From Nocardioides seonyuensis (GTDB taxonomy: Bacteria; Actinomycetota; Actinomycetes; Propionibacteriales; Nocardioidaceae), in NCBI RefSeq assembly GCF_004683965.1, contig NZ_CP038436.1:1116001-1180000 (forward strand): a stretch of DNA of 64,000 nucleotides. Direction: 5' to 3'. Position numbers and translations under genes: made by a program. Under the pieces are notes generated by a model, which searched no databases, was not told the DNA's origin, and was given only the letters and a program-made list of their open reading frames with translations. Numbering within the stretch: the first letter of the stretch is position 1; each line of letters starts with the position of its first letter. Shown here in pieces: positions 46,180 through 60,655 of the stretch.

Positions 46180-47439
46180 TCAGACCTGGTCGTCGCGCAG
46201 CCCCCACGGGCTGCCGTACTCCCTGAGCAGGTCGAGGAACGGCACCGCGTCGAAGGCCTCCGGGCCCAGCACGCCGGAGCCCTTCCAGTCACCACGAGCT
46301 AGCAGCTCCAGGGCGACGACGGGGTTCACCGCGGTCTGCCAGACCACGCACTGGTGGCCGTACTCGCGCATGGACCACTCGTTGTCGACCACGTGATAGA
46401 GGTACGACGACCTCGGCCCCGTCGGGTTGCCCTGCTCGTCCTTGCCGGTGCCCGTCACCCAGAGCCCGGCACACGTCTTGCCGGTCATCCGCGGGCCGAC
46501 CGAGGCCGGGTCGGGCAGCACTGCCGCCACCACGTCGCGCGGCGAGACCTCGACGGCACCCTTGGCCGACGGCACCCGGACGGGGTGCGTGCTGTCGAGC
46601 CCGAGCGCGTGGAGGGTGCGGAGCACGCCGATGAACTCCTCGCCGAGGCCGTACTTGAACGTCACCCGCTGGGCGTCGATCCAGCGCGGCATCAGGAGCA
46701 CCTCCTCATGCTCGACGTTGACGCACTCGACCGGCCCGATCCCCTCGGGGAAGTCGAAGACCTCCGGCTCGCTGAACGGCTCGGTCGTGAACCACCCGCC
46801 GTCGGCGTCCTTGCGCGACCGCTCCCAGATCACCGGCGGGTTGAGGCACTCCTCGATCGTGGTCCAGATCGAGAACGACGGCGCGAAGATCTCGTTGCCG
46901 TCCTCGTCATGGACCGCGAGGTTGGCGCCGTCGCGGGTGCCGAGCTCCTCGATCTCGGAGAACAGGTGGTCGGCGGCGTAGCGCGCGAACACGTCGGACA
47001 GCCCCGGCTCGACGCCCATCCCGCAGAGCGCGAGCCGCCCGGCCGCCTCCCACTCGCCGGACTTGGCGAACTGCAGGTCACCGAGCTTCACCCCGACCTT
47101 CTCGTAGGGCACCTCCGGATGCCGCCGCGAGAGCGACATCGCCATGTCGAGGTAGTCGGCCCCTGCCGCGAACGCACCCTCGAAGATGGGCATCACGAAT
47201 CGCGGGTCGACGGCGTTCATCACGTGGGTGATGTCGTGCTCGCGGCACAGGGCGGCCACCGAGTCGGCGGAGGACGCGTCGACGCGCGCACCCCTGAAGC
47301 GCGGATCAGCCTCCGCCGCCCGGTTGGCCCGTCCCTCGTCGTAGTCGGCGACCACGACGCTCTCGAAGAAGTCCCGACGGGCGGCGATGGCACAGAAGGC
47401 CGACCCCACGCCGCCGGCGCCCACCAGCAGGATGCGCAT
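46180..47439 (-). CDS. Saccharopine dehydrogenase-like NAD(P) enzyme
   Basis: The 419-residue protein has an N-terminal Rossmann motif (MRILLVGAGGVGSAFCAIAA, G-x-G-x-x-G) and the saccharopine-reductase C-terminal domain, with SPSFSIWTTIEE-like and WSMREYGHQCVVWQTAVNP blocks. Family members split or form saccharopine or carboxynorspermidine (Lys1/Lys9, CANSDH-like). In this amine locus a role in polyamine or lysine side-chain handling is likely, but the substrate is open. It is 4 bases downstream of the aldehyde dehydrogenase gene. Confidence 0.88.
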   Translation of the reverse strand: MRILLVGAGGVGSAFCAIAARRDFFESVVVADYDEGRANRAAEADPRFRGARVDASSADSVAALCREHDITHVMNAVDPRFVMPIFEGAFAAGADYLDMAMSLSRRHPEVPYEKVGVKLGDLQFAKSGEWEAAGRLALCGMGVEPGLSDVFARYAADHLFSEIEELGTRDGANLAVHDEDGNEIFAPSFSIWTTIEECLNPPVIWERSRKDADGGWFTTEPFSEPEVFDFPEGIGPVECVNVEHEEVLLMPRWIDAQRVTFKYGLGEEFIGVLRTLHALGLDSTHPVRVPSAKGAVEVSPRDVVAAVLPDPASVGPRMTGKTCAGLWVTGTGKDEQGNPTGPRSSYLYHVVDNEWSMREYGHQCVVWQTAVNPVVALELLARGDWKGSGVLGPEAFDAVPFLDLLREYGSPWGLRDDQV

Positions 47440-47443
47440 CGCG

Positions 47444-48880
47444 TCAGTCCTGACCGATGTAGCTCATCACGTGCTTGATCCTCGTATAGTCCTCGAGGCC
47501 GTACATGGAGAGGTCCTTGCCGTAGCCCGAGTGCTTGAACCCGCCGTGGGGCATCTCGGAGATGAAGGGGATGTGGGTGTTGATCCACACGCAGCCGAAG
47601 TCGAGGCGCTTGGACATCCGCAGGGCTCGGGCGTGGTCCTTGGTCCAGACGCTGGAGGCCAGGCCGTACTGCACGCCGTTGGCCCAGCGCAGCGCCTCGG
47701 CCTCGTCGCTGAACTTCTGCACGGTCATCACCGGCCCGAAGATCTCGGTCTGGATCTGCTCGTCGTCCTGCTGCAGCCCCGACAGCACGGTCGGCTCGTA
47801 GAAGTAGCCGACGCTGCCCTGGCGGGTGCCGCCGGTCTCGACCTTCGCGTGGTCGGGGAGCCGGTCGACCATGCCCGAGACGCGGGAGAGCTGGTCGGCG
47901 TTGTTGAGCGGGCCGTAGTAGGTGTCCTCGTTCGCCGGGTCGCCGGTCGGCATCCCCCGGGCCTGCTCGGCGAGCGCCGCGACGAACTCGTCGTGCACCC
48001 CCGGACCGGCGAGGATGCGGGTGGCGGCGGTGCAGTCCTGGCCGGCGTTGAAGAGGCCGGCGCCGGCGATGCCCTCGGCGGCCTTCTCGATGTCGGCGTC
48101 GTCGAAGACGATCACCGGGGCCTTGCCGCCGAGCTCGAGGTGGACCTTCTTCAGGTCGGCGGCCGCCGAGCCGGCCACCTCCATGCCGGCGCGCACCGAC
48201 CCGGTGATGGCGACCATCTGCGGGATCTTGTGGGCGACGAGCTCGCGCCCTGTGTCGCGGTCGCCGGTGACGACGTTGAGCACGCCGGGCGGCAGGAACT
48301 CCTGGGCGATCTCCGCCAGCAGCGTGGAGCTGGCCGGCGTGGTGTCGCTGGGCTTGAGCACGATGGTGTTGCCGGCGGCGAGCGCCGGGGCGATCTTCCA
48401 GATCATCATGAGCAGCGGGTAGTTCCACGGCGTCACCTGGCCGACGACGCCGATGGGCTCGCGTCGCACCCACGAAGTGTGGTCTGCCATGTACTCCCCA
48501 GCGGACTTCCCCTCGAGCACCCGCGCGGCACCGGCGAAGAAGCGGAAGTGGTCGGAGGCGTACGGCATCTCCTCGGCCATCGTGAGCCCGAGCGGCTTGC
48601 CGGTGTCGCGGCACTCGACCTGGTTGATCTCCTCCACCCGCGACTCGATCGCGTCGGCGAGCTTGAGCAGCGCGTTGCTGCGGTCCTGGGGCGTCGTCTC
48701 GCCCCACGTCTCGAACGCTGTGGCCGCCGCCCGGTAGGCCCGGTCGACGTCCTCGGCGCCGGACTTCGGCGCCTGGGCGTAGACCTCGCCGGTGGTGGGG
48801 TCGATGACGTCGTAGGTCTCCCCCGACACCGAGTCGACCAGCTCGCCGTTGACCACGTTGCGGAACGTCTTGTCTGCCAT
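47444..48880 (-). CDS. Gamma-aminobutyraldehyde-type aldehyde dehydrogenase
   Basis: The 478-residue NAD(P)-dependent aldehyde dehydrogenase shows PWNYPLLMMIWKIAPALAAGNT, the active-site Glu block LELGGKAPVIVFDDAD, and the catalytic Cys in NAGQDCTAATRI. Sequence features match PatD/PuuC-like 4-aminobutyraldehyde or betaine-aldehyde dehydrogenases. It would oxidise the aldehyde made from putrescine or similar amines to GABA-type acids. It sits in the polyamine locus and is followed by the saccharopine-dehydrogenase-like gene. Confidence 0.9.
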   Translation of the reverse strand: MADKTFRNVVNGELVDSVSGETYDVIDPTTGEVYAQAPKSGAEDVDRAYRAAATAFETWGETTPQDRSNALLKLADAIESRVEEINQVECRDTGKPLGLTMAEEMPYASDHFRFFAGAARVLEGKSAGEYMADHTSWVRREPIGVVGQVTPWNYPLLMMIWKIAPALAAGNTIVLKPSDTTPASSTLLAEIAQEFLPPGVLNVVTGDRDTGRELVAHKIPQMVAITGSVRAGMEVAGSAAADLKKVHLELGGKAPVIVFDDADIEKAAEGIAGAGLFNAGQDCTAATRILAGPGVHDEFVAALAEQARGMPTGDPANEDTYYGPLNNADQLSRVSGMVDRLPDHAKVETGGTRQGSVGYFYEPTVLSGLQQDDEQIQTEIFGPVMTVQKFSDEAEALRWANGVQYGLASSVWTKDHARALRMSKRLDFGCVWINTHIPFISEMPHGGFKHSGYGKDLSMYGLEDYTRIKHVMSYIGQD

Positions 48881-48987
48881 GCAGGGAGACTAGCCAGTCT
48901 GCTGCGGAATCTGTAGGTCTCGCCCGGAAATGCTGATGAATCCGCCACTCACGACAACCCGGGCCGACTGAATCCCCACCAGGTCGC

Positions 48988-50658
48988 TCACGGCAGCGGC
49001 TCGGCCACCACGCGCCCGGCGACCCACGTCGACCGCACCCGCGTCGCGCCGATCTCCTCGACGGGCCCGGCGAAGGGGTCTCGGTCGAGGACCACCAGGT
49101 CGGCGACCGCACCGGGGTGCAGCTCCCCTGCCGCCCGATCGCCGTCCTGGTGGTTGATCCGTGCAGAGCCCGACGTGTAGGCCGCGAAGGCGCGCTCGAG
49201 GGTGAGGGCCTGCTCGGGCAGGAACGGGTCCTCCCCCTCGCGGCCGGGGGTGTCGTACGCCGTGCGGTTGACGCCGACGTGGATGGCGGCCAGCGGGTCG
49301 GGGGACGACACCGGCCAGTCGCTGCCGCACGCCAAGGGGGCGCCGGCGCGGTCGAGGTCGGCGAAGGGGTACTGCCAGCGTGACCGCTCGGGCCCGAGGA
49401 CGGGCAGCGTCAGGTCGACCATCTGATCGTCGTGGCAGGCCCAGAGCATCTGCAGGTTGGCGGCGACGCCGAGCTCGGCGAAGCGCGGCACGTCGTCGGG
49501 GTGGACCAGCTGGACGTGCGCCAGCTGGTGGCGCGGCTCGCGATGTCCCGCCCGGGGTACGACACCCGCGGTGCCGGCGAACGCGTCGAGCGCCTCGCGC
49601 ACACCGCGGTCGCCGATCGTGTGTACGTGGACCTGGAAGCCCTCCGTGTGCAGCGCCAGCACGGCCTGCCGGAGAACAGCGGCCGGCACGAAGCTGTGAC
49701 CACGGTTGGCCGTGGCGTGGCCACAGCGATCGAGGTAGGGATCCAGCATCGCGGCCGTGCCGTTCTCGGCGACGCCGTCCTGCATGATCTTCACCGAGGT
49801 CGCCCGCAGTCGCCCGTGCGTGTAGGCCTCTCGGCGTGCGACGAGGTCGGCCACCTGCGCCGCGACACCGTCCACCCCGGCCGAGCGGTCCCACCACAGG
49901 GCCCCGACGACGGTCGCCGTGAGGTCTCCCGACTGCGCGGCCCTCAGGTAGGTCTCGGACGGGTCGTCCATCCCTGCGTAGGTGCCGAGGATGGCGTCCT
50001 GCCAGGCCGTCACTCCGGACTCGTGCAGATGGGCCTGGCCCGCGAGCAGGCCTTGTCGGAGCTCCTCGTCCGTGGTGGGCGGCAGGAGCCGCGACACCAT
50101 TGCCATCGCGCCCTCGTGCAGGGTGCCGGTCGGCGCTCCCGAGTTGTCTCGCTCGATGCGACCGTCTGGCGGGTCAGGGGTGCCCGCGTGGATGCCGGCC
50201 AGCGTCAACGCACGGCTGTTCACCCACGCGCCGTGGTGGTCGCGGTTGGGCAGGAAGGCCGGCCGGTCGGGCACGACGGCGTCGAGGTCGGCGGCCGTCG
50301 GGTTGCCGCCCGGGAAGGCTGCCATCTCCCAGCCGCCGCCGAGGATCCAGTCCGCCTCCGGGTGCGCGGCCCCATAGGCGGCGACCGCCTCGACGTACGC
50401 CTCGCGCGACGAGACCCCGGACAGGTCGCAGCGGATGCGCTCCAGCCCGCCCTGCACGACGTGCACGTGGGCGTCGATGAAGCCCGGCGCGACCAGGCCA
50501 CCGTCGAGGTCCACCACCCGGTCGGCGCCGGCGGCGGCGTCGGATGCGTCGCCCTCGGGCAGCACCGCCGCGACTCGGTCGTCCTCGACCAGGAGCGCGT
50601 GATCGGACAGGTGCCGGTGGCCGTCGAAGAGCCCACCACCGCGGAAGAGTGTGCGCAC
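48988..50658 (-). CDS. YtcJ-like metal-dependent amidohydrolase
   Basis: The 556-residue TIM-barrel hydrolase has the metal motif FIDAHVHVVQGG (H-x-H), VHVHTIGDRGVREALD in the middle, and the late metal Asp in ACGSDWPVSSPDPL, diagnostic of the YtcJ/amidohydrolase-3 group. GTG 50658 gives an 8-base gap after potC; a 44-base-longer form starting at 50709 would overlap potC. It hydrolyses an amide or formyl bond of an unknown substrate. Its place directly after the Pot operon suggests it acts on the imported compound. Confidence 0.85.
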   Translation of the reverse strand: MRTLFRGGGLFDGHRHLSDHALLVEDDRVAAVLPEGDASDAAAGADRVVDLDGGLVAPGFIDAHVHVVQGGLERIRCDLSGVSSREAYVEAVAAYGAAHPEADWILGGGWEMAAFPGGNPTAADLDAVVPDRPAFLPNRDHHGAWVNSRALTLAGIHAGTPDPPDGRIERDNSGAPTGTLHEGAMAMVSRLLPPTTDEELRQGLLAGQAHLHESGVTAWQDAILGTYAGMDDPSETYLRAAQSGDLTATVVGALWWDRSAGVDGVAAQVADLVARREAYTHGRLRATSVKIMQDGVAENGTAAMLDPYLDRCGHATANRGHSFVPAAVLRQAVLALHTEGFQVHVHTIGDRGVREALDAFAGTAGVVPRAGHREPRHQLAHVQLVHPDDVPRFAELGVAANLQMLWACHDDQMVDLTLPVLGPERSRWQYPFADLDRAGAPLACGSDWPVSSPDPLAAIHVGVNRTAYDTPGREGEDPFLPEQALTLERAFAAYTSGSARINHQDGDRAAGELHPGAVADLVVLDRDPFAGPVEEIGATRVRSTWVAGRVVAEPLP

Positions 50659-50665
50659 CTGTCGC

Positions 50666-51478
50666 TCAGCCCGCCGCGACGCGCGAACGCCGGCGGCTGT
50701 TGAGCTCACCGAGGACCACCAGCGCCAGGGCGGCGAAGAACATCACCGTGCCGATGACGTTGATCTGCGGCGGCACGCCACGCTGGGCGGCTCCCCACAC
50801 GTACATCGGGAAGGTGACCCGCTGCCCGGCGTTGAGGTTGGTGATGATGAAGTCGTCGAAGGACAACGAGAAGCTCAGCAGGGCGGCCGCCAGGATGCCT
50901 GGGAACACCAGCGGGAACGTCACCTTCCGGAAGGTCTGGACCTCATTGGCGTAGAGGTCCATCGCCGCCTGCTCCAGCCGTGGGTCGAGGCCGGCCAGCC
51001 GCGCCTTGATCGTCACCACCGCGAAGCTGAGGCAGAACAGGATGTGCGCGATCAGGATCGTCCAGAAGCCCAAGGAGCCGGCGAAGCCGGTCGTCACGAA
51101 GAGCGCCAGCAGCGAGGAGCCCATCACGATCTCGGGCGAGGCCATCGGCAGGAAGGTCAGCACGTTGACGCCGGACCGGCCGCGGAAGCGATGGCGCGCG
51201 AGCGCGAATGCCATCAGCGTCGCCAGCGCCGTCGCGACCAGCGTGGCCAGCAGGGCGATGCGGATCGACAGCGAGACAGAGTCGCACAGCCCGTTGGGCT
51301 CGCACGGGGCTCGCCAGTTGTCGAGGGTGAACCCGTCGAACTGGTAGCTGATGCGCGAGGCCTGGTCGTTGAACGACATCAGGATCACGACGAAGACCGG
51401 CGTGAGGAGGTAGAGCAGCACCAGCACCCCGACGCCGAGCACCAGGTGGTCGCCGAGCCACCGTCCGAGCCTGGTCAT
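50666..51478 (-). CDS. potC: Polyamine-type ABC transporter permease (PotC)
   Basis: The 270-residue inner membrane protein has about six transmembrane helices and an EAA loop (GLDPRLEQAAMDLYANEVQTFRKVTFPLVFPG, about residues 163-195), placing it in the PotC/YdcV permease group. It overlaps the potB stop by 4 bases. A short extracytoplasmic Cys pair (EPNGLCDS, CEPN) is unusual for the group. It works with PotB, PotA and PotD. Substrate could be spermidine, putrescine or another cationic amine. Confidence 0.9.
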   Translation of the reverse strand: MTRLGRWLGDHLVLGVGVLVLLYLLTPVFVVILMSFNDQASRISYQFDGFTLDNWRAPCEPNGLCDSVSLSIRIALLATLVATALATLMAFALARHRFRGRSGVNVLTFLPMASPEIVMGSSLLALFVTTGFAGSLGFWTILIAHILFCLSFAVVTIKARLAGLDPRLEQAAMDLYANEVQTFRKVTFPLVFPGILAAALLSFSLSFDDFIITNLNAGQRVTFPMYVWGAAQRGVPPQINVIGTVMFFAALALVVLGELNSRRRSRVAAG

Positions 51479-52386
51479 ACGAGCTCCTCGGTGCCCGCGC
51501 GACGGATGTAGAACAACACCATCGCGGTGATCAGGAGCATCAGGGTCACCGAGAGAGCCGCTGCCTCCGGGTAGGAGCCGCCCTCGAAGAGGTTCTGGAT
51601 GACGTTGCCGATCATCTGCGTCTGGGGATTGCCCAGCAGCTCGGCGTTGATGTAGTCGCCGGCTGCTGGGATGAAGGTGAGCAGCGTGCCCGCCACCAGG
51701 CCCGGGAGCGACAGCGGCAGCGTGACCTTGCGGAATGTCGTGAAGGGCGAGGCATAGAGGTCGGCGCCGGCCTCCATCAGCCGTGGGTCGACCTTCTCGA
51801 GGGAGGCGTAGAGCGGCAGCACCATGAACGGCAGGAAGTTGTACGTCAGCCCGGTCACCACCGCGAAGGGGGTGGACAGCAGCCGTCCGTCCGGGTCGAG
51901 CACCTGGAGCCAGCGCAGGCCGTCCGCGATCCAGGCCTGGTCACCGAGGATCAGCTGCCACGACAGGGTGCGGATCAGGAACGAGGTGAAGAACGGCGCG
52001 ATCACCGCGACCAGCATCAGGTTCTTCCACCTCCCGGCCTTGAACGCGATCGCGTAGGCGAGGGGATAGGCCAGCGCGATGCAGGCGAGCGTCGCGATGC
52101 CGGCGTAGACCAGCGACCTGACCAGCTGCTCGCGGTAGTCGCCGAGGACGTTGAAGTAGTTGGCCACCTCGCCGGTCATGGCGTAGCCGGTCTCCAGCGA
52201 CCCGGCAGGGTCGTAGAGCGAGGTGCCGACCAGGGAGAAGAGCGGCACGATGAAGAAGACCAGGAGCCATGCCAGGGGCAGGGTCAGGAGCAGGACGGCC
52301 GTGCGCGTGCTGCGCCGGCCACGCTCCGGCGGGTCGGCCACCGCCCCCGGGGCACCGCCCGGCGCGATCCCGTGGGCAAGGCTCAC
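51475..52386 (-). CDS. potB: Polyamine-type ABC transporter permease (PotB)
   Basis: The 303-residue permease has about six transmembrane helices and an EAA loop at KVDPRLMEAGADLYASPFTTFRKVTLPLSLPG (about residues 195-226), the PotB/YdcU pattern. The N-terminal ~35 residues before the first helix are a Pro/Arg-rich extension. GTG 52386 is chosen because it overlaps the potA stop as GTGA; the longer frame is non-homologous upstream. Ends in ATGA overlap with potC. Confidence 0.9.
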   Translation of the reverse strand: MSLAHGIAPGGAPGAVADPPERGRRSTRTAVLLLTLPLAWLLVFFIVPLFSLVGTSLYDPAGSLETGYAMTGEVANYFNVLGDYREQLVRSLVYAGIATLACIALAYPLAYAIAFKAGRWKNLMLVAVIAPFFTSFLIRTLSWQLILGDQAWIADGLRWLQVLDPDGRLLSTPFAVVTGLTYNFLPFMVLPLYASLEKVDPRLMEAGADLYASPFTTFRKVTLPLSLPGLVAGTLLTFIPAAGDYINAELLGNPQTQMIGNVIQNLFEGGSYPEAAALSVTLMLLITAMVLFYIRRAGTEELV

Positions 52387-53540
52387 GCGCCCTCCTCGTG
52401 CTCGACTCCCGCGTTGGCGTCCTGGGAGGCGTCGAGCAGGAACGAGTGGTCGGGCATCCAGTGCAGGTCGACCTTGTCGTCTGAACGGAACCGCTCGCGT
52501 GCCCCGGTGTTCTGCTCGAAGACCGTGAGCTGCTGGCCCCACGGCATGCGTACGACGTACTGGGTGCTGACGCCGATGAAGCTCACGTCGGACACGACAC
52601 CGTCACGCAGCGTGTTGGAGTCGTCGCCGGGGTCGCTGCCGGCGGTGGCGAGGTAGATCTTCTCGGGGCGGACCCCGACCCAGACTGCACCCTCGGCGGC
52701 ACCTGCGTCGGAGCCCTCCGCCCGCCGGGCGTGCAGCCGGGCGCCCTCGACCTCGACGCCGACGCTGTGCGGGTCGGACCCGAAGACGCTGCCGCGCAAC
52801 AGGTTGGACTGGCCGAGGAAGTTGGCGACGAACGTGGTGGAGGGCCGCTCGTAGAGCTCCACCGGCGAGCCGAGCTGCTCGATGTGGCCGCCGTTCATGA
52901 CCGCGACGGTGTCGGCCATCGTCATGGCCTCCTCCTGGTCGTGGGTCACGTGCACGAAGGTCAGCCCGACCTCGGTCTGGATGCGCTTGAGCTCCAGCTG
53001 CATCTGGCGGCGCAGCTTGAGGTCGAGGGCACCGAGCGGCTCGTCGAGCAGCAGCACCTTCGGCCGGTTGATCAGCGCACGGGCCAGTGCGACCCGTTGC
53101 TGCTGCCCGCCCGAGAGCTGCGCGGGCTTGCGGTCGGCGTACTCCCCGAGCTCGACGAGCTCGAGCATGTCGCGCACGGGACCCTTCACGTCCTTGCGCT
53201 TCTGCCGGCGCAGCCCGAACGCGACGTTCTCGAAGATGGTCAGGTGGGGGAACAGCGCATAGCTCTGGAAGACGGTGTTGACCGGGCGGCGGTAGGGCTT
53301 GTGGTGGGTGATCTCGTCCTCCCCGAGCCGGATGGTCCCGGCGGTGGGGTCCTCCAGGCCCGCGACCATCCGCAGCGTGGTCGTCTTGCCGCAGCCCGAG
53401 GGCCCGAGCAGGGCGAAGAACTGGCCCTCGGGGACGGTCAGGTCGAGGTCGTCGACGGCCGTGAACGAGCCGAACCGCTTCGTCAGTCCCGACAGGACCA
53501 GGTCGCCGCCGGAGCCCGGCTCGGTGATCTCAGCGTCCAT
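52383..53540 (-). CDS. potA: Polyamine-type ABC transporter ATP-binding protein (PotA)
   Basis: The 385-residue ATPase carries Walker A GPSGCGKTTT (about residues 44-53), Q-loop VFQSYALFPHLT, signature LSGGQQQRVALARAL, Walker B LLLDEPLGALD, and HVTHDQEEA, then TOBE domains typical of PotA/CysA-type ATPases. It forms the inner-face motor of the Pot transporter. ATG 53540 is 5 bases past the potD stop. The TOBE part is unusually long, with an Asp/Ser insert near residue 310. Confidence 0.93.
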   Translation of the reverse strand: MDAEITEPGSGGDLVLSGLTKRFGSFTAVDDLDLTVPEGQFFALLGPSGCGKTTTLRMVAGLEDPTAGTIRLGEDEITHHKPYRRPVNTVFQSYALFPHLTIFENVAFGLRRQKRKDVKGPVRDMLELVELGEYADRKPAQLSGGQQQRVALARALINRPKVLLLDEPLGALDLKLRRQMQLELKRIQTEVGLTFVHVTHDQEEAMTMADTVAVMNGGHIEQLGSPVELYERPSTTFVANFLGQSNLLRGSVFGSDPHSVGVEVEGARLHARRAEGSDAGAAEGAVWVGVRPEKIYLATAGSDPGDDSNTLRDGVVSDVSFIGVSTQYVVRMPWGQQLTVFEQNTGARERFRSDDKVDLHWMPDHSFLLDASQDANAGVEHEEGA

Positions 53541-53545
53541 CGCGG

Positions 53546-54787
53546 TCAGGCGCCGATCACCTGGTTGAACTCCTTGTCGTACTCCTCGCGCACCTTGGTG
53601 TCGAGGTTCATGAAGGAGAAGGTGCCGGCGAGGTCGTCCTCGGTCGGGAAGATGAGCGGGTTGCCGACCAGCGACTTGTCGATCTTCGCCATCTCCTCCT
53701 CCGCCCCCTGCACGGGACAGATGTAGTTGACCCACGCCGCGACACGGGCCGCCACCTCGGGCTCGTAGTAGTAGTCCATCAGCTTCATCGCGTTGGCGCG
53801 GTGGTCGGCCTTGTTGGGCACCATCATGTTGTCGCTCCAGAGACCGAGGCCTTCCTCGGGGGCGATGAACTTGATGTCGGGGTTGTCGTACTGCATGACG
53901 ATGACGTCGCCCGACCAGGCCTCCGCCGCGACGAGGTCGCCCTTGTTGAGCGGCCCGGTGTAGTCGTTGCCGGTGAAGCGGCGCACCTGGCCGGAGTCGA
54001 CGACCTCCCTCAGCCGCTCGATCGCGGCGGCCCAGTCCTCGTCGTCGAAGTCCTCGGGGTCGGCCCCGGTGGTCTTGAGGAAGAAGGCCATCGTGTCGCC
54101 CATCTCGGAGAGCATGCTGATCTTGCCCTTGAGGTCGGGACGGGTGCAGAACTCCTCCCAGCTGGCGATCTCGCCGGTGTACTTGGAGTTGTAGGCGATG
54201 CCGGTCAGGCCGCTCTGCCACGGCACGGAGTGCTTGCGGTCCTCGTCCCAGGCGGGACTGCGCAGCGACTCCACCATGTTGGCCTCGACGTTCGGCATGG
54301 CCGACATGTCGAGCTCCTGCATCCAGCCGAGGCCGATCATGCGAGCAGCCATCCAGTCGGTCATCACGATGATGTCGCGGTCGACCGGCTCGCAGGCGCC
54401 GAGCTGGTTGCGGACCTTGGCGAAGAACTGGTTGTTGTCGTTGATGTCGGTGTTGTAGGTGACGTCGATCCCGGACTGCTTCTCGAAGTCCTCCAGGGTC
54501 GGGAGCCGCTTGCCCTTCTCGTCGATGTAGAGCGGCCAGTTGGAGAACACCAGCTTCGCCTCGGTGTCGCTGAGGTCCTCGCTCTTGCACTCCTCGGCGC
54601 TCTGCTGCGTGCCCGAGGTGCCGCAGGCTGCGAGGAGGTTGGCCGAGGAGAGACCCAGGGCACCGAGCCCGACGCCGCGCAGCACGTTGCGGCGGGACAT
54701 CATCTCGCGGGCCAGCTGCCGTGCCAGCCGGTCCGCCGCGCTGTCGTCGCCTCGGTAGGGCCCGTTCGTGCTCGTCCACCTGCTCAT
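53546..54787 (-). CDS. potD: Polyamine-type ABC substrate-binding lipoprotein (PotD), Tat signal
   Basis: The 413-residue binding protein has an N-terminal extension followed by a Tat signal (SRRNVLRGVGLGALG near residues 31-45) and lipobox LLAAC (Cys near 55). The mature part matches the PotD/PotF family: VFSNWPLYIDEKGKRLPTLE and YNTDINDNNQFFAKVRNQL. The ATG 54787 has a GGAGGATCC ribosome binding site, which decides the start. It leads the potDABC operon and is divergent from the AsnC-family gene. Confidence 0.92.
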   Translation of the reverse strand: MSRWTSTNGPYRGDDSAADRLARQLAREMMSRRNVLRGVGLGALGLSSANLLAACGTSGTQQSAEECKSEDLSDTEAKLVFSNWPLYIDEKGKRLPTLEDFEKQSGIDVTYNTDINDNNQFFAKVRNQLGACEPVDRDIIVMTDWMAARMIGLGWMQELDMSAMPNVEANMVESLRSPAWDEDRKHSVPWQSGLTGIAYNSKYTGEIASWEEFCTRPDLKGKISMLSEMGDTMAFFLKTTGADPEDFDDEDWAAAIERLREVVDSGQVRRFTGNDYTGPLNKGDLVAAEAWSGDVIVMQYDNPDIKFIAPEEGLGLWSDNMMVPNKADHRANAMKLMDYYYEPEVAARVAAWVNYICPVQGAEEEMAKIDKSLVGNPLIFPTEDDLAGTFSFMNLDTKVREEYDKEFNQVIGA

Positions 54788-54946
54788 GCGGATCCTCCTC
54801 GGGGGGTTCACACTCGGTGGACGGATCGTGCCACGCATCAGATTCTCGGACAAGGGAATCCGTCGAACCACGACGCACCTGCAACGAATTCCAGAGGTCT
54901 GGGCACGGTAGTTGTGCGGATCGCCAGCGAGTGCCACGATTCGCCG

Positions 54947-55426
54947 GTGACGACTCGGCCTCATCGCGACTCCGCCCCCGTCCAGCTCGACGACGTCTCC
55001 AAGGCGATCATCGAGCAGCTCCAGCAGGACGGGCGCCGGTCCTATGCCGCTATCGGCAAGGTGGTCGGGCTCTCCGAGGCCGCCGTACGACAGCGCGTGC
55101 AGCGCCTGACCGACAGCGGGGTGATGCAGGTCGTCGCGGTCACCGACCCCCTCCAGCTCGGCTTCGCCCGCCAGGCGATGATCGGCATCCGCGTGACCGG
55201 ACCGCTGGAGCCGGTGGCCGACAGGCTCACCGAGCTGGACGAGGTCGACTACGTCGTGATCACCGCTGGCTCCTACGACCTCCTCGCAGAGGCGGTGTGC
55301 TCCAGCGACGAGGAGCTGCTCGAGCTGGTCTCGCAGAAGATCCGTCGCATCGAGGGTGTGACCGGCACCGAGACGTTCATGTACCTCCAGCTGCGCAAGC
55401 AGACCTACTCGTGGGGTGTGCGCTGA
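54947..55426 (+). CDS. AsnC/Lrp family transcriptional regulator
   Basis: The 159-residue regulator has an N-terminal HTH (LDDVSKAIIEQLQQDGRRSYAAIGKVVGLSEAAVRQRVQRLTDSG, about residues 15-60) and a RAM ligand-binding domain (GIRVTGPLEPVADRLTELDEVDYVVITAGSYDLLAEAVC). Lrp-type proteins bind amino acids or amines and act as local or global switches. It stands between the pot operon and the FAD oxidase genes and most likely controls them. GTG 54947 starts without a clear ribosome binding site; the mRNA may be leaderless. Confidence 0.88.
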   Translation: MTTRPHRDSAPVQLDDVSKAIIEQLQQDGRRSYAAIGKVVGLSEAAVRQRVQRLTDSGVMQVVAVTDPLQLGFARQAMIGIRVTGPLEPVADRLTELDEVDYVVITAGSYDLLAEAVCSSDEELLELVSQKIRRIEGVTGTETFMYLQLRKQTYSWGVR

Positions 55427-56769
55427 CCGGCTCCCGCTGGTCCGGGCTCTCCTTCTGGCACGAGACGGCCGGGACCGACTGGACCCCTCGCCCGTCGCTG
55501 CCTGCGTCGACCCGGGCCGACGTCGCCATCGTGGGTGCGGGCTACACCGGGCTGTGGACCGCCCACTACCTCGCCGAGGCCGCCCCGGGCCTGCGCATCG
55601 TGGTGCTGGAGGCGGAGGTCGCGGGGTACGGCGCCTCGGGGCGCAACGGCGGCTGGTGCTCGGCGCTCTTCCCCTCGCCCTTCGACGCCGCCCAGCACCG
55701 GGCGATGCGCGAGACGGTCGACGAGGTGGCGCGCGCCGCGACCGCCGAGGGCATCGACGCCCACCTCGCCAAGGGCGGCACCATCACCCTCGCGCGCACC
55801 CGTGCCCAGCTCTCGCGGGCGCGCGCCGAGGTGGACGAGGCTCGGAGCCGGGGTCGCGGCGAGGACGACCTGGCCCTGCTCGACAAGGCTGCCGCGGACG
55901 CCGTCCTGCGGGCGACCGGGACACTCGGCGCCACCTACACACCCGACTGCGCGGCCATCCATCCCGCTCGCCTGGTGCGCGGGCTCGCCGACGCGGTCGA
56001 GCGACGAGGTGTCGCGGTCCACGAACGCACCAGGGTCCGCACGATCTCTCCCCACCGGGTCGAGACCGACCACGGCACCGTCACCGCCGACTTCGTGGTG
56101 CGGGCGACGGAGGGCTACACCCCGCGGCTGACCGGGCAGGAGCGCGCCGTCGCCCCGGTCCACTCGCTGGTGCTCGCCACCGCTCCTCTCAGCACGAGCC
56201 AGTGGGACGAGGTCGGGCTGGCGCGCCGCGAGACCTTCGCCGACCACCGCCACCTGATCATCTACGGCCAGCGCACCGCCGACGACCGGCTCGTCTTCGG
56301 CGGCCGCGGGGCGCCCTACCGCTTCGGCTCCCGGATCACGACCGACTTCTCCCGCGACCACCGGGTCTTCGAGAGGCTGCGAGAGACCCTGGTCGACCTC
56401 TTCCCCGTGCTGCGCGACGTCGAGGTCACCCACCGGTGGGGCGGAGTGCTCGGCATCCCGCGCGACTGGTGCGCCTCCGTCGGCCTCGACCGCGACACCG
56501 GGCTGGCCTGGGCCGGCGGCTACGTCGGCGACGGCGTGAGCACGACCAACCTCGCCGGCCGCACCCTGCGAGATCTGGTCCTGGGTCGTACGACGCCGCT
56601 CACCGAGCTTCCCTGGGTCGACCACCGGTCCCCCGACTGGGAGCGCGAGCCGCTGCGGTGGGCCGGCATCAACGCGGGCCTGCGCGCCGCCTCGCTCGCC
56701 GACCTCGAGGAGCGGATCACGCGACGGCCCAGCGTCGTTGCCTCAGCCCTGGACCGGTTGACGCACTGA
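55411..56769 (+). CDS. FAD-dependent amine oxidase (PuuB-like, DAO superfamily)
   Basis: The 452-residue flavoprotein has the dinucleotide motif VAIVGAGYTGLWTAHYL (about residues 31-47) and GASGRNGGWCSALFPSP (about 73-89), matching the DAO/PuuB superfamily of gamma-glutamylputrescine and other amine oxidases. WAGGYVGDGVSTTNLAG near the C-terminus is the second FAD site. GTG 55411 overlaps the AsnC gene by 16 bases, so it is co-regulated. It would oxidise an amine or its glutamyl conjugate to aldehyde with H2O2 release. Confidence 0.88.
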   Translation: MGCALTGSRWSGLSFWHETAGTDWTPRPSLPASTRADVAIVGAGYTGLWTAHYLAEAAPGLRIVVLEAEVAGYGASGRNGGWCSALFPSPFDAAQHRAMRETVDEVARAATAEGIDAHLAKGGTITLARTRAQLSRARAEVDEARSRGRGEDDLALLDKAAADAVLRATGTLGATYTPDCAAIHPARLVRGLADAVERRGVAVHERTRVRTISPHRVETDHGTVTADFVVRATEGYTPRLTGQERAVAPVHSLVLATAPLSTSQWDEVGLARRETFADHRHLIIYGQRTADDRLVFGGRGAPYRFGSRITTDFSRDHRVFERLRETLVDLFPVLRDVEVTHRWGGVLGIPRDWCASVGLDRDTGLAWAGGYVGDGVSTTNLAGRTLRDLVLGRTTPLTELPWVDHRSPDWEREPLRWAGINAGLRAASLADLEERITRRPSVVASALDRLTH

Positions 56770-56774
56770 TCTGG

Positions 56775-56798
56775 GAATCACCGGCCGGCCGGGGATTC
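56775..56798. terminator. Terminator-like hairpin between convergent genes
   Basis: GAATCACCGGCC (56775-56786) faces GGCCGGGGATTC (56787-56798), 12-bp arms with one mismatch and no loop. It lies between stops of the FAD oxidase gene and the PPOX gene. Without a clear U-tract on either side it could still serve as a bidirectional terminator. Confidence 0.5.
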
Positions 56799-56807
56799 AG
56801 ATGCGGG

Positions 56808-57296
56808 TCAGAGCTGTACGACGCCGCTACTGTCGTCGTCCTCGTCCTCGGCCTTGTCGTCGCTCACGAGCCCCTTGACGAGCTTGACCACCATCGCGGC
56901 CTTGCCCGGGTTCTCCCAGTACTCCGCGGTGTCCGCGGTCACCTTGATCAGGCCGTTGTTGGGGTCCTGGGCATCGCCCTTCATGAAGGCCGACACCGAC
57001 GGGTCCCACAGCTCCTCGAGCTTGGCGCGGTCCTCGCTCACCTCGGCGTTGCCGGCCAGCGAGACCCAGCCCTTGTCGCTGGCGTAGGCGACGTTGACGG
57101 CCGGGCGCTGCCTGATCGCGGCAACCTTGTCGGTGTCGAGCTCGGTGATGAACCACACCGTGCCCGGGTCGTCGAAGTCCTGGGTCCCGAGCGGCACGGA
57201 CACGAGCCGGCCGACGTCGTCGACATAGGTGAGGACTGCGATCCGCGTCTTCTCCATGATCTCGGCAACGAGCTCTCGAGGGTCCTGGTCAGGCAT
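56808..57296 (-). CDS. Pyridoxamine 5'-phosphate oxidase family protein (general stress protein 26-like)
   Basis: The 162-residue FMN-binding split-barrel protein has RIAVLTYVDDVGRLVSVPLGTQDF near the start, GTVWFITELDTDKVAAIRQRPAVNVAYA, and a C-terminal acidic tail (KAEDEDDDSS). The GSP26/YdaG branch binds flavin or F420 and not pyridoxamine phosphate. ATG 57296 has an AAGGAG ribosome binding site. A role in stress or flavin redox is likely. Confidence 0.87.
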   Translation of the reverse strand: MPDQDPRELVAEIMEKTRIAVLTYVDDVGRLVSVPLGTQDFDDPGTVWFITELDTDKVAAIRQRPAVNVAYASDKGWVSLAGNAEVSEDRAKLEELWDPSVSAFMKGDAQDPNNGLIKVTADTAEYWENPGKAAMVVKLVKGLVSDDKAEDEDDDSSGVVQL

Positions 57297-57388
57297 GCTG
57301 TGCTCCTTCTCCGAGTGAGGGCAGGTCGACGTGGATGTGCCCACTTCACCCGGCACCTAGCCGGACGGCTGGCTGGCGCTCGCTGCGA

Positions 57389-57499
57389 TCAGTCCATGTT
57401 CAGCAGGAGGGTCAGCAGCACCGACGCCGCGACCGACACCGCGATCATCACCAGACACCCCATCGCGCCGCCCAGCGGCCTCACACGTACCGGACTCAT
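57389..57499 (-). CDS. Small single-pass membrane protein (36 residues)
   Basis: ATG 57499 opens 36 codons ending TGA 57391-57389. The product starts MSPVRVRPLGGAMGC and is hydrophobic from about residue 14 (CLVMIAVSVAASVLLTLLL), ending NMD. A GAGGTGG ribosome binding site stands 7 bases upstream. GC-rich third positions support coding. It lies 93 bases downstream of the PPOX gene. I recall similar actinobacterial small proteins but cannot name a family. Confidence 0.65.
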   Translation of the reverse strand: MSPVRVRPLGGAMGCLVMIAVSVAASVLLTLLLNMD

Positions 57500-57573
57500 G
57501 GACCCACCACCTCTCGAGGACCCCCGTACCCCGGTGCGGCCGTGATGAGCCCTGCAGTCGCGGGACGATCGCG

Positions 57574-57744
57574 TCAGGCGTATCGGCGCCCACTCTGCGC
57601 GGTGAAGCTGACGCTGACCGAGTCGTTCTCGCGGTGATGCCGGCAGATGCCCGCCTCCTGCAGCTCTTCGAGGACTTCGAGCGGCGGCTCCTCATCCGGG
57701 GTGTATGACCTGGGTCGCTGATCACTCGTACCTGGTACGAGCAA
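57574..57744 (-). CDS. Possible small protein, TTG start (56 residues)
   Basis: A frame with coding-like third positions (about 88% G or C by my count over 43 codons) runs SYTPDEEPPLEVLEELQEAG, then ICRHHRENDSVSVSFTAQSGRRYA to TGA 57576-57574. Only TTG 57744 can start it without an upstream stop being passed. The palindrome at 57725-57741 would then lie inside the first codons. It may be a true small gene with a regulated start or a decayed one. Confidence 0.4.
   Translation of the reverse strand: MLVPGTSDQRPRSYTPDEEPPLEVLEELQEAGICRHHRENDSVSVSFTAQSGRRYA
57725..57741. promoter_or_regulatory. 17-bp perfect palindrome
   Basis: CTCGTACCTGGTACGAG has 8-bp perfect arms and a one-base centre. It lies between the FAD oxidase stop (57772) and the small frame at 57574-57744. 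It looks like an operator for a dimeric regulator or a short hairpin. No regulator gene is adjacent. Confidence 0.5.
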
Positions 57745-57771
57745 CGCGCGACCTAGGTGCAGTGGTCACCC

Positions 57772-59160
57772 CTAGAAGTCGAAGCCCACGCCCAGCCGGT
57801 CGAGCGTGCGCAGCCACAGGTTCCTTCGGCCAGTCCGGTCCTCGCGGGCGAAGGCCCAGCGGGTGAGGGTGATCCCCACCCAGGCGAACGGCTCGGGAGG
57901 GAACGGCAGCGGCGTCTCGCGCACCATGCGCAGCCGTGTCCGCTCGGTCTCCTCACCGGTCACCAGGTCGAGCAGCACGTCGGCCGCGAACCGCGACGCC
58001 CCGACGCCGAGCCCGGTGAAGCCGAGCGCGTAGGCGGTCCGCCCCTTGTGGGCGGTCCCCCAGAACGCGCAGAACCGCGTGCACGTGTCGATCACCCCGG
58101 ACCAGCGGTGGGTGAAGCGGATGCCGTCGAGCTGGGGGAACGTCTCGGCGAAGTTGCGGGCCAGCAGGTCGAAGGTCTGGGGGCGGTCGTAGTTGCCCGG
58201 GGCGACCGAGCGCCCGTAGTGGTAGACCGCCTCGTAGCCGCCCCACAGGATCCGCCGGTCGGGCGTGATCCGGTAGTAGTGGAACTGGTTGCCGGAGTCT
58301 GCGACGCCGATCGCCGGGTCCCAGCGCAGCGACGCCAGCTGCTCGGCGGTCAACGGCTCGGTCGCCAGCACGTAGTCGTAGACCGGCACCACCGACCAGC
58401 GCAGTCGTGGCACGAGGCCCTGGAAGGCGTTCGTCGCCAGCACCACCGACTGCGCGTGCACCACCGACCTCGTCCCCCCGCCGCGCACGCGCGCCTCGAC
58501 GCCGTACGACGTCTCGCGCAGCGCCTCGACGCGGGTGCCCTCCGCGATCCGGGCACCGAGTCCCTCCGCCGCCCGAGCCAGCCCCCAGGCCAGTCGTGCA
58601 GGGTCGACGAGCGCGCACCCCTCTGCGTCGAAGCGCCCCGCCAGGTAGGTCGGGGAGTCGACCATCTCGCGCACGGCCTCGGTCGTGAGGAAGCCGGGCT
58701 GGTCCGGCTCGTGGGCCGCCACCTCGTGCGGGGTCCGAGCCACCGACAGCTGGCCGCCGCGGACGAAGCCGCACTCGATGCCGTAGCGGTCGACTGTCTC
58801 CTCGATCTCGTCGAGGTTGCGCAGGCCGAGGGCGTGGATGGTGTCGTACTCCTCGGGCCAGCGGGCGCGACCGTTGGCCTCACCGTGGGTGAGGCTGGCC
58901 TCGCAGAAGCCGCCGTTGCGACCGGTGGCGTGCTCGGCGATGCGGTCGCCCTCGACGAGGAGCACGCTGAGGGTCGGGTCGCGCTCGAGGGCGCGCAGGG
59001 CGGTCCACAGCCCGGTGAATCCGCCGCCCACGACCAGGAGGTCGACCTCGCAGCCCTCGGTGACCGGCGGCCTGGGGTCCGGACGATCGGCGCTGTCGAG
59101 CCACAGGGGAACGAGGGCCGAGCCGGCCCAGCTCGCGTCGACCGTGGCGTCCGAGCTCAT
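57772..59160 (-). CDS. Second FAD-dependent amine oxidase (PuuB-like)
   Basis: The 462-residue flavoprotein is a paralogue of the oxidase at 55411: it has LLVVGGGFTGLWTALRAL (about residues 42-59) and ATGRNGGFCEASLTHGE, echoing GYTGLWTA and GRNGGWCSA. The second FAD motif is FTGLGVGASRFAADV near the C-terminus. It is read divergently from the aminotransferase gene with a 100-base shared upstream region. Two such oxidases imply two different amines or two steps. Confidence 0.88.
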   Translation of the reverse strand: MSSDATVDASWAGSALVPLWLDSADRPDPRPPVTEGCEVDLLVVGGGFTGLWTALRALERDPTLSVLLVEGDRIAEHATGRNGGFCEASLTHGEANGRARWPEEYDTIHALGLRNLDEIEETVDRYGIECGFVRGGQLSVARTPHEVAAHEPDQPGFLTTEAVREMVDSPTYLAGRFDAEGCALVDPARLAWGLARAAEGLGARIAEGTRVEALRETSYGVEARVRGGGTRSVVHAQSVVLATNAFQGLVPRLRWSVVPVYDYVLATEPLTAEQLASLRWDPAIGVADSGNQFHYYRITPDRRILWGGYEAVYHYGRSVAPGNYDRPQTFDLLARNFAETFPQLDGIRFTHRWSGVIDTCTRFCAFWGTAHKGRTAYALGFTGLGVGASRFAADVLLDLVTGEETERTRLRMVRETPLPFPPEPFAWVGITLTRWAFAREDRTGRRNLWLRTLDRLGVGFDF

Positions 59161-59260
59161 GTCGGCACCCTAGACCATCTTCTTCGCATCCCGTTGTCCA
59201 GACGGGCTTGCACCTTCGGAATCGTTGGTGTTCGGCTTGCCAGAAGGGGGATACCAGCCC

Positions 59261-60655
59261 ATGATGGGGCCCATGGCTCTCGATTCGGATGCTCAGCAGC
59301 GCGCCGCCAAGGACAACCTCTGGATGCACTTCACCCGGCAGGGCGGCTACGCGGACCACGACGTGCCGGTCATCGTGCGCGGCGAGGGCGCCTACATCTA
59401 CGACGACAAGGGTCGGCGCTACCTCGACGGGCTGGCCGGACTCTTCGTCTCGCAGCTGGGCCACGGTCGCACCGAGCTTGCCGAGGCCGCGGCCAAGCAG
59501 GCCAAGGAGCTGGCGTTCATGCCGCTGTGGTCCTACGCGCACCCACCGGCGATCGAGCTGGCCGAGCGGGTGGCTGCCTACGCCCCCGGTGACCTCAACC
59601 GGGTCTTCTTCACCAGCGGCGGCGGCGAGGCCGTCGAGACCGCGTGGAAGCTGGCCAAGAACTACTACAAGCTCACCGGCCGGCCGATGAAGCACAAGGT
59701 GATCAGCAGGGCCATCGCCTACCACGGCACCACCCAGGGTGCGCTCTCGATCACGGGGCTGCCCTTCCTCAAGCAGCAGTTCGAGCCGTTGGTGCCCTCG
59801 ACGTTCCGGGTGCCCAACACCAACTACTACCGCGCGACCGAGCACGGCTCCCCCGAGGGGCTGACTCCCGAGCAGTTCGGGCGCTGGGCCGCCGACCAGA
59901 TCGCCATCGCCATCGAGAACGAGGGCCCTGACACGGTCGCGGCGGTCTTCCTCGAGCCCGTCCAGAACGCCGGCGGGTGCTTCCCTCCCCCGCCCGGCTA
60001 CTTCGACCGGGTGCGCGAGATCTGCGACCAGTACGACGTCCTGCTCGTCTCCGACGAGGTCATCTGCGCCTTCGGCCGGCTCGGCCACATGTTCGGCGCC
60101 GACCGCTTCGGCTACCAGCCCGACATCATCACCTGCGCCAAGGGCATCACCTCGGGCTACGCACCCCTGGGCGCGATGATCGCCTCGGACCGGCTGATGG
60201 AGCCCTTCCTCGAGGACGGCGCGATGTTCGCCCACGGCTACACCTTCGGCGGCCACCCGGTGTCGACCGCGGTCGCCCTGGCCAACCTCGACATCTTCGA
60301 GAGCGAGAACGTCCTGGAGCACGTCCGCGACAACGAGGGTGCCTTCCGCGCCACGCTCGAGCGGCTCAAGGACCTGCCGATCGTCGGCGACGTGCGCGGC
60401 GAGGGCTACTTCTACGGGATCGAGCTCGTCAAGGACAAGGACACCAAGGAGACCTTCAGCGACGAGGAGTGCGAGCGGATCCTGTTCGGCGCGGTGTCCA
60501 AGGGACTCTTCGAGGAGGGTCTCTACTGCCGCGCCGACGACCGCGGCGACCCGGTCGTGCAGCTCGCCCCGCCGCTGATCTGCGACCAGTCGCACTTCGA
60601 CGAGATCGAGCAGATCCTGCGCGTGGTCCTCGACAAGGCACACGCGCTGCTCTGA
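59261..60655 (+). CDS. Class III (omega) aminotransferase, putrescine/amine type
   Basis: The 464-residue PLP enzyme has FFTSGGGEAVETAWKLAKNYY, IISRAIAYHGTTQGALSITG-like segment, VLLVSDEVICAFGRLGHMF (Asp of the PLP ring) and the PLP Lys in ITCAKGITSGYAPLGA. Ends RVVLDKAHALL. It transfers the amino group of an omega-amine to pyruvate or 2-oxoglutarate, giving the aldehyde. ATG 59261 follows AGAAGGGGG, which decides the start over the 12-codon-longer frame. It is the likely first deamination step with the ALDH at 47444. Confidence 0.92.
   Translation: MMGPMALDSDAQQRAAKDNLWMHFTRQGGYADHDVPVIVRGEGAYIYDDKGRRYLDGLAGLFVSQLGHGRTELAEAAAKQAKELAFMPLWSYAHPPAIELAERVAAYAPGDLNRVFFTSGGGEAVETAWKLAKNYYKLTGRPMKHKVISRAIAYHGTTQGALSITGLPFLKQQFEPLVPSTFRVPNTNYYRATEHGSPEGLTPEQFGRWAADQIAIAIENEGPDTVAAVFLEPVQNAGGCFPPPPGYFDRVREICDQYDVLLVSDEVICAFGRLGHMFGADRFGYQPDIITCAKGITSGYAPLGAMIASDRLMEPFLEDGAMFAHGYTFGGHPVSTAVALANLDIFESENVLEHVRDNEGAFRATLERLKDLPIVGDVRGEGYFYGIELVKDKDTKETFSDEECERILFGAVSKGLFEEGLYCRADDRGDPVVQLAPPLICDQSHFDEIEQILRVVLDKAHALL

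Follow-up and report, generated by a model that had tools for sequence, protein, structure and literature searches.

Why would an enzyme that databases name saccharopine dehydrogenase be encoded among genes for the uptake and breakdown of polyamines? The question is raised by a 64,000-nucleotide stretch of the genome of Nocardioides seonyuensis (positions 1116001-1180000 of the 3.97 Mb single contig; hereafter, the window), in which genes for a Pot-type polyamine transporter, an AsnC-type regulator, two flavin adenine dinucleotide (FAD) enzymes, an omega-aminotransferase (AT) and an aminobutyraldehyde-type dehydrogenase (ALDH) are found together with the gene in question, whose product is here called the 46180 enzyme after its position, and with a gene for a YtcJ-like amidohydrolase. 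A previous, sequence-only reading of the window had described an amine-catabolism locus into which a saccharopine-dehydrogenase-like enzyme is packed. The comparative data presented below support such a locus and show that this additional NAD(P)-type enzyme is conserved next to it; its list of Pot, AsnC, FAD, AT and ALDH genes likewise agrees with the open frames and families that we find. Apparently, a familiar polyamine-catabolism set has been joined by one widespread, uncharacterized enzyme. Our preferred interpretation, to which we assign a probability of about 0.4, is that the locus is an operon with which an actinobacterium takes up and breaks down polyamines and that the 46180 enzyme is a catabolic offshoot of the carboxyspermidine dehydrogenase (CASDH) lineage, linked to NAD+ and most likely oxidizing a polyamine at a C-N bond.

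Relatives of the 46180 enzyme

Both by sequence and by fold, the nearest relatives of the 46180 enzyme are characterized CASDHs, with 23-30% identity; the fold relatives come from a Foldseek list, at which VIA-align provided a second look. The protein carries saccharopine-dehydrogenase Pfam domains, and the 'saccharopine-dehydrogenase-like' enzyme of the sequence-only reading is indeed present, but the label is too loose for a protein whose nearest relatives are CASDHs. Lysine dehydrogenase and homospermidine synthase (HSS) gave no match to the 46180 enzyme, either in a sequence search (E ≤ 1) or in a profile search (E ≤ 10), and neither L-lysine 6-dehydrogenase nor HSS is closest to it in fold or sequence. 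A plain saccharopine or lysine dehydrogenase was rejected as a candidate, with an invariant His-Glu-Glu sequence (see below), CASDH as the nearest relative and no lysine dehydrogenase match by sequence or profile.

This kinship invites the view that the enzyme is an ordinary biosynthetic CASDH, which would convert aspartate semialdehyde and putrescine to carboxyspermidine, to be followed by an as yet unrecognized decarboxylase. The proximity by sequence and fold and the retention of the catalytic His and Glu speak for such a function, but the identity is low and the carboxynorspermidine synthase model NF043000 gives the protein 147.8 bits, under its cut-off of 800. The cofactor site and the search for a partner enzyme bear further on this possibility.

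Cofactor site and active site

CASDH structures include 8deb and 8h4z/8h52 and, according to PMC10413350, also 4ina and 4rl6; in the part of that paper available to us, H228/E229/E230 and E188 are the catalytic residues of BfCASDH, and S34 (via water), T36 and K39 are the ligands of the NADPH 2'-phosphate. In the alignment, E188 corresponds to E197 of the 46180 enzyme and H228/E229/E230 to H244/E245/E246, and the positions of S34/T36/K39 are taken by D32/D34/R37, so that Asp replaces ligands of the NADP phosphate. Among 199 aligned family members (201 were gathered, and two longer than 450 amino acids left out), D32, W192, E196, E197, H244, E245 and E246 are found in all 199, and D34 in 184. 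Sites for NAD+ are classically marked by an acidic residue where Rossmann strand 2 ends, and we infer from the residues at this site that the 46180 enzyme uses NAD+.

In a second comparison, 57 sequences of the 46180 type were set against eight of the CASDH type, hand-picked among the 40 listed of 121 plasmid records; one of the eight, a pSymB gene of S. meliloti 1021, we take to be SMb21630. The latter is needed for spermidine, as described for mutants in PMC13293326 (seen in part). Asp32 is present in 57/57 sequences of the 46180 type versus Ser (Ser34) in 8/8 of the CASDH type, seven of which have Thr at the position of BfCASDH Thr36; E196, next to the deep Glu, is found in 57/57 versus Arg in 8/8; E243 in 57/57 versus a non-acidic residue (Gly, His, Ser or Tyr) in 8/8; and W192 in at least 93% versus Glu in 8/8. 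His-Glu-Glu and the deep Glu are kept in all 57. Thus, CASDHs (8deb, 8h4z/8h52 and S. meliloti SMb21630) differ from the 46180 enzyme in having Ser where it has the NAD+-type Asp32 and Arg where it has Glu196. The extra Glu in place of the CASDH Arg suggests that the substrate would be more positively charged than that of CASDH or would have no carboxylate.

The invariance of His-Glu-Glu is relevant to another alternative, namely, an oxidative deaminase in the manner of L-lysine 6-dehydrogenase that would act on a primary amine (an amino acid such as lysine, or else putrescine or cadaverine) and pass the aldehyde to ALDH. Lysine and saccharopine dehydrogenases are described, in the part of PMC10413350 at hand, as being without that sequence; besides, deamination of putrescine is already predicted to be covered by the neighboring AT. 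We regard such a deaminase as unlikely, albeit worthy of serious consideration.

The missing decarboxylase partner

A carboxynorspermidine decarboxylase is encoded directly upstream in all four annotated CASDH-type records (four further records are without annotation there), and in S. meliloti, CASDH and the decarboxylase form a two-gene operon (PMC13293326, in the portion consulted). In contrast to such CASDHs with their nspC-type carboxyspermidine decarboxylase (CASDC) partner, none was found for the 46180 enzyme, which in many actinobacteria has a catabolic neighborhood. Specifically, the nspC model TIGR01047 has no match at E ≤ 0.01 in the genome of N. seonyuensis, and in none of 61 genomes of the family to which it belongs (presumably Nocardioidaceae; its own genome included) is there a match over the cut-off, with one stray hit of 23 bits. 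Of 14 control genomes, 8 in one search and 6 in the other had a match to the model, and in both searches a single match exceeded the cut-off. The search covered nspC-type decarboxylases alone, which leaves some room for the biosynthetic alternative. Its other weak points are the location of the 46180 gene among catabolic genes and the report, in the text seen of PMC8503589, that M. smegmatis is without detectable polyamines, an argument whose relevance hangs on M. smegmatis carrying the gene. Altogether, an ordinary biosynthetic CASDH seems to us quite improbable. The oxidative direction would be favored because of the NAD+-type site, the lack of a recognized decarboxylase and the catabolic neighbors, so that reductive coupling, as envisaged in the sequence-only reading, appears to be the less likely direction.

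Linkage across genomes

A search of the 61 family genomes with the 46180 protein found it in 39, at 73-85% identity (the query itself apart), with no weaker relative listed at E ≤ 1e-20; the gene is usually single-copy, the exceptions being two copies in G002 and two fragments in G007. In 31 of the 39 carriers, ALDH lies within 300 bp of the enzyme, and in 32 within 10 kb; in G001 and G025 (L141, L142), ALDH adjoins the 46180 gene but is cut by the contig end. AT is found within 10 kb in 30/39. The presence of the enzyme correlates with that of AT (37/39 with it versus 10/22 without; Fisher p 2e-5) and of ALDH (34/39 versus 9/22; p 3e-4) and, by the rows used, of YtcJ (19/39 versus 3/22; p 0.01), all p-values being nominal since the genomes are related and kinship was not corrected for.

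Beyond the family, 80 named loci, picked solely by similarity to the 46180 enzyme (the 80 most similar of at least 526), contain ALDH in 46, AT in 45, PotC in 34, AsnC in 24, a GabT-type gene in 23, YtcJ in 22, FAD2 type in 18, a ureohydrolase in 9, an APC permease in 6 and FAD1 type in 3. These neighbors were counted as clusters at ≥45% identity, and the counts are lower bounds, some loci being cut by contig ends; the genes were predicted by a codon-score caller trained on the window genes, which found nothing in L111 and L127 and missed the enzyme in L126. In the 60 loci from genera other than Mycobacterium and Agrococcus, ALDH is present in 46 and AT in 41. The one GabT-type representative scanned fits PRK06058 (763.6 bits, cut-off 639), whereas the one ureohydrolase scanned is under the cut-off of the agmatinase model (221.8 versus 302 bits), and three APC permeases near 46180 relatives match broad amino-acid transporter models only, under cut-off. 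Because the arrangement recurs across genera, it is not due to chance.

The closest relative among the 120 matches listed, the query apart, is from Nocardioides piscis (88% identity); database names among the listed relatives are saccharopine dehydrogenase and ATP-binding protein. Plasmid records yielded 13 matches at 60-80% identity, of which the five listed are all actinobacterial, and 108 below 60%. On a Mycobacterium ulcerans plasmid, AT-AsnC is divergent from ALDH and a 46180-type enzyme, the ALDH being a different one (49% identical); plasmids of Streptomyces NBC_00158 and Kitasatospora hold an APC permease, a regulator and a 46180-type enzyme together; in S. goshikiensis, a TetR gene is the sole neighbor beside it. 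In a sample of the phylum, 27 of 149 genomes, the query's own included, have a relative at E ≤ 1e-60, with 48-81% identity (own apart); among these, a ureohydrolase directly adjoins the 46180-type gene in L104 and L105, an ALDH-type gene (49% and 66%) in L115 and L117, and an APC-type gene (44%) in L122 and L124. A regulator-sized gene beside the enzyme in Nonomuraea had no match at 1e-60. In six loci (L010, L012, L018, L028, L049, L056), a second Pot-like ABC system is seen downstream (PotA ~50%, PotB/PotC ~32-42% to those of the window). In Mycobacterium loci (L017, L025, L031 and others), the neighbors look by eye like tgt, P450, glutamyl-Q-tRNA-synthetase-type and polar amino-acid ABC transporter genes, with no Pot.

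Proposed reaction and known systems

The following scheme can be envisaged. PotDABC would import a polyamine, from which the 46180 enzyme would remove a hydride, by means of NAD+, at a carbon beside a nitrogen, with H244 (together with E246) acting as the base; the resulting imine would be hydrolyzed by water, releasing an aminoaldehyde and an amine. Our best guess at the overall reaction is spermidine + NAD+ + H2O giving 4-aminobutanal or 3-aminopropanal plus a diamine, both products to be consumed by the neighboring ALDH and AT. The latter two would presumably convert a diamine to an omega-amino acid (putrescine to 4-aminobutanal to gamma-aminobutyric acid, GABA); in many relatives, a GabT-like gene comes after that of the 46180-type enzyme. 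Spermidine is preferred over putrescine for two reasons, namely, that diamines would be the province of AT and that the enzyme is akin to CASDH, whose product is spermidine with a carboxylate; even so, spermidine as the substrate is the weakest step of the proposal.

The first half of this mechanism has a precedent in the same superfamily: bacterial HSS oxidizes putrescine with NAD+ via H296/E298 and also accepts spermidine (PMC4725965, seen in part), thus sharing with the proposed reaction a hydride acceptor that works on a polyamine and a His and Glu pair. The likeness cuts both ways, as the NAD+-type site and the His and Glu pair would also suit an HSS-like transferase that moves an aminobutyl group and keeps NAD+ as a bound cofactor, with no net redox change; with HSS detected neither by sequence nor by profile, we consider such a transferase very unlikely. 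The net reaction that we propose for the 46180 enzyme is that of Pseudomonas aeruginosa SpdH, which converts spermidine to 1,3-diaminopropane and aminobutyraldehyde (as outlined in the accessible part of PMC9397018); SpdH, however, belongs to the polyamine oxidases and has a haem-binding fold, rather than being an NAD+ enzyme of the saccharopine-dehydrogenase fold.

The base set of Pot, AsnC, FAD oxidoreductase, AT and ALDH is not new. The polyamine-assimilation genes of S. coelicolor, as given in the parts of PMC9397018 and PMC5403932 at our disposal, comprise SCO5655 (PatA-type AT), 5656 (Lrp/AsnC), 5657 (ALDH), 5658 (binding protein), 5667-5670 (Pot), 5671 (FAD oxidoreductase) and 5676 (GabT), so that the gene kinds for uptake, transamination, aldehyde oxidation and FAD oxidation are all shared with the window locus. 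Neither a CASDH-like enzyme nor YtcJ is mentioned for the S. coelicolor set in the accessible part of PMC9397018, and the words 'saccharopine' and 'carboxyspermidine' do not occur in this review. The steps after glutamylation are postulated for S. coelicolor, and the aminotransferase route is left open there (PMC5403932, PMC9397018, both in part). In literature searches that covered no preprints and few subscription journals, titles and abstract openings contained no link of this enzyme to actinobacterial polyamine catabolism, a mention in full texts, such as PMC10157215 or PMC9854754, being possible.

Gamma-glutamylation and the Puu-type genes

As had been noticed from the sequence, PuuA and PuuD are absent from the window: it has no match to the glutamine-synthetase-type PF00120 or to Peptidase_C26 (PF07722), all matches of the genome to these models lying outside it. 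Four of them pass the low Pfam cut-off of 20.5 for PF07722, the best with 40 bits over half of the model; this model is unspecific, having matches in 14/14 control genomes, and there is no clear PuuD in the genome. Elsewhere, at G000:C1:3147.6-3149.7 kb, a glutamine synthetase (GS) gene is followed by a class-I amidotransferase gene. The upstream piece of the GS gene, the sole piece scanned, is under the cut-off of all five matching models, including gamma-glutamylputrescine synthetase NF045547 (182.9 versus 650). The GS-like gene (L088:9609-10950, ~3147.6-3148.9 kb) reads in two overlapping frames, the Pfam model splitting at position 208, which could reflect either a real pseudogene or a sequencing error. 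By its neighbor pattern, the gene may be GlnA2-like.

Such a gene could start gamma-glutamylation in trans, in which case FAD1 and FAD2 would take the part of PuuB, and YtcJ and the 46180 enzyme would be side players. Two gamma-glutamylpolyamine synthetases, GlnA2 and GlnA3, are described for S. coelicolor (PMC8998196 and PMC5403932, in the parts seen), and the GS and amidotransferase pair fits this scheme, but the GS piece falls short of its model, the gene is split between two frames, no clear PuuD accompanies it, and the conserved 46180 enzyme is left unexplained. Gamma-glutamylation in trans thus strikes us as distinctly unlikely as the function of the locus, although it could run in parallel. 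PuuA and PuuD encoded elsewhere were rejected as the full explanation, the GS piece being below cut-offs and the C26 matches weak and unspecific.

The YtcJ amidohydrolase

The sequence-only reading had suggested a variant route that would use both the 46180 enzyme and YtcJ. The comparison of neighborhoods across related genomes, set beforehand as the refuting test, gives this idea no support: YtcJ is apart from the 46180 enzyme in most genomes, occurring within 10 kb of it in just 8 of 39 carriers, the window included, while the enzyme stays with ALDH. These counts used 22 of 33 YtcJ rows and 49 of 52 AT rows, the 11 and 3 that were dropped not being near the enzyme by coordinates. Among the seven further ytcJ genes linked to the enzyme, six are located between ALDH and AT, and the genome with the seventh has no AT match. 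Given the low linkage, YtcJ was rejected as a partner of the 46180 enzyme; we regard it as an accessory amidohydrolase that stands outside the proposed route.

Nine examined places of unlinked YtcJ (L129-L137) are of varied settings, two with an amine-type neighbor: a ureohydrolase 4-5 kb away in L133 and, in L134, an adjoining FAD2-like (DAO-type) gene with an aldehyde dehydrogenase nearby. Streptomyces and Embleya plasmids show YtcJ beside a regulator and an ABC transporter (a large binding protein, two permeases and two ATPases); on Streptomyces-type plasmids, this TetR-YtcJ-ABC-transporter module is annotated in L153 and L154 and recognizable by gene layout only in L155, L159 and L160. Since a DAO-type FAD gene is the immediate neighbor of YtcJ in L134 and L156, and in L155 stands one gene away from it, YtcJ may serve FAD enzymes by hydrolyzing an imported amide, which is offered as a lead only.

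Evidence that weighs against the proposed reading

Several observations speak against a polyamine-cleaving dehydrogenase. A similar fold does not demonstrate a function, and the structural model is weak precisely at the substrate segments, with a mean pLDDT (predicted local distance difference test) of 60 for residues 191-200, 56 for 241-250 and 52-53 for 101-120. Six of the eight CASDHs used for comparison read His-Asp-Glu, making the motif looser in CASDH than the examples in the available part of PMC10413350 suggest, and the proposed proton-relay Ser, S148 (BfSer144), is found in 195/199 family members and 48/57 sequences of the wider set, versus 2/8 CASDHs (Val in six). The decarboxylase search was aimed at the nspC type alone, and another pyridoxal-phosphate decarboxylase could stand in. 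Neither the low-confidence parts of the model nor the variation of the motif to His-Asp-Glu affects the evidence from cofactor, linkage and decarboxylase.

Linkage, too, has its exceptions. Ten of the 22 non-carriers keep AT, and hence the 46180 enzyme is not essential to the gene set; four genomes (G005, G016, G036, G049) keep the enzyme and AT without this ALDH nearby, and in G057 the enzyme is apart from both. None of 16 Mycobacterium loci has any of the ten marked neighbor clusters, L041 and L054 showing merely weak ALDH- or AT-type matches (31-39%); all four Agrococcus loci have AT, AsnC and an APC permease but no ALDH; and several deeper-branching loci of the phylum sample place the enzyme among leuS, GGDEF, ilv-type and hemD genes. 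The Mycobacterium and deeper loci without amine neighbors weaken the guess at the substrate, and the core function of the 46180 family may be broader than polyamines.

Organization of the locus

The features of the locus are collected in Table 1.

Table 1. Genes of the proposed polyamine locus, with positions in the 64,000-nucleotide window
Feature	Positions	Strand	Evidence and remarks
CASDH-like dehydrogenase with NAD+-type site (46180 enzyme)	46180..47439	-	419 aa; saccharopine dehydrogenase in databases; key enzyme
Aminobutyraldehyde-type dehydrogenase (ALDH)	47444..48880	-	PRK13473 709.7 bits, cut-off 615; PDB 1wnb, 6c43
YtcJ-like amidohydrolase (Amidohydro_3)	48988..50658	-	PF07969 325.7 bits; separable member
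PotC-like polyamine ABC permease	50666..51478	-	NF007047 210.3 bits, under cut-off 326
PotB-like polyamine ABC permease	51475..52341	-	NF007044 206.5 bits, under cut-off 348; start approximate
PotA, polyamine ABC ATPase	52383..53540	-	TIGR01187 366.9 bits, cut-off 355.6
PotD-like substrate-binding lipoprotein	53546..54787	-	NF007048 90.1 and NF007962 82.6 bits, both under cut-off
Lrp/AsnC regulator, divergent from potD	~54914..55426	+	Translation; 60-82% matches beside AT/Pot at other loci; start approximate
FAD1, DAO-family FAD oxidoreductase	~55423..56769	+	PF01266 194.7 bits; TIGR03329 194.7, under cut-off 632.8; start approximate
FAD2, DAO-family FAD oxidoreductase	57772..59160	-	PF01266 177.8 bits
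Class-III omega-aminotransferase (AT), PRK06541 type	59261..60655	+	PRK06541 820 bits, cut-off 574 (profile frame start 59225)

On the minus strand, the order is potD, potA, potB, potC, ytcJ, ALDH and the 46180 gene, and the tight gaps between them (5, 41, -4, 7, 107 and 4 bp) make a single transcript likely. The AsnC gene, recognized from its translation and from neighborhoods, and FAD1 overlap by 4 bp and run divergently from potD; FAD2 and AT are divergent from each other and 100 bp apart, and AT is 11.8 kb from the 46180 enzyme. AT matches PDB 9gh9, a 'Streptomyces aminotransferase', with 773 bits, and of the two PDB matches of ALDH, 6c43 is a gamma-aminobutyraldehyde dehydrogenase. FAD1 and FAD2 are 31% identical, and 'PuuB-like' is for both a family-level label. 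In PDB at 1e-5, FAD1 matches only glycine oxidase and dimethylglycine dehydrogenase, and nothing matches FAD2, whose relatives come after potC at several other loci. Between the FAD genes, positions 56808-57296 encode a small protein that by eye resembles a pyridoxamine-phosphate-oxidase/F420-type flavin protein, and an MFS transporter gene next to AT (60677-61960) fits the L-lactate transporter model SfMCT (416 bits, cut-off 320).

Implications

How actinobacteria complete the breakdown of polyamines is for the most part a matter of prediction, as exemplified for S. coelicolor by the parts of PMC5403932 and PMC9397018 seen, and the conserved 46180 gene, 4 bp from ALDH, is a direct and inexpensive target in this respect. 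Going further, we suggest, tentatively and with considerable doubt, that a large actinobacterial family, whose members now mostly bear the name saccharopine dehydrogenase, is a soluble, NAD+-dependent dehydrogenase cleaving spermidine (or another polyamine), which would have evolved from or beside the CASDH line by a cofactor switch and one charge reversal in the active site. If true, bacteria would possess a further means of opening spermidine at its secondary amine, in addition to gamma-glutamylation and oxidases of the SpdH type, and many database entries would be wrong in using the names saccharopine dehydrogenase or ATP-binding protein. A biosynthetic enzyme line would then have a catabolic branch, with changes of cofactor and charge that are open to single mutations.

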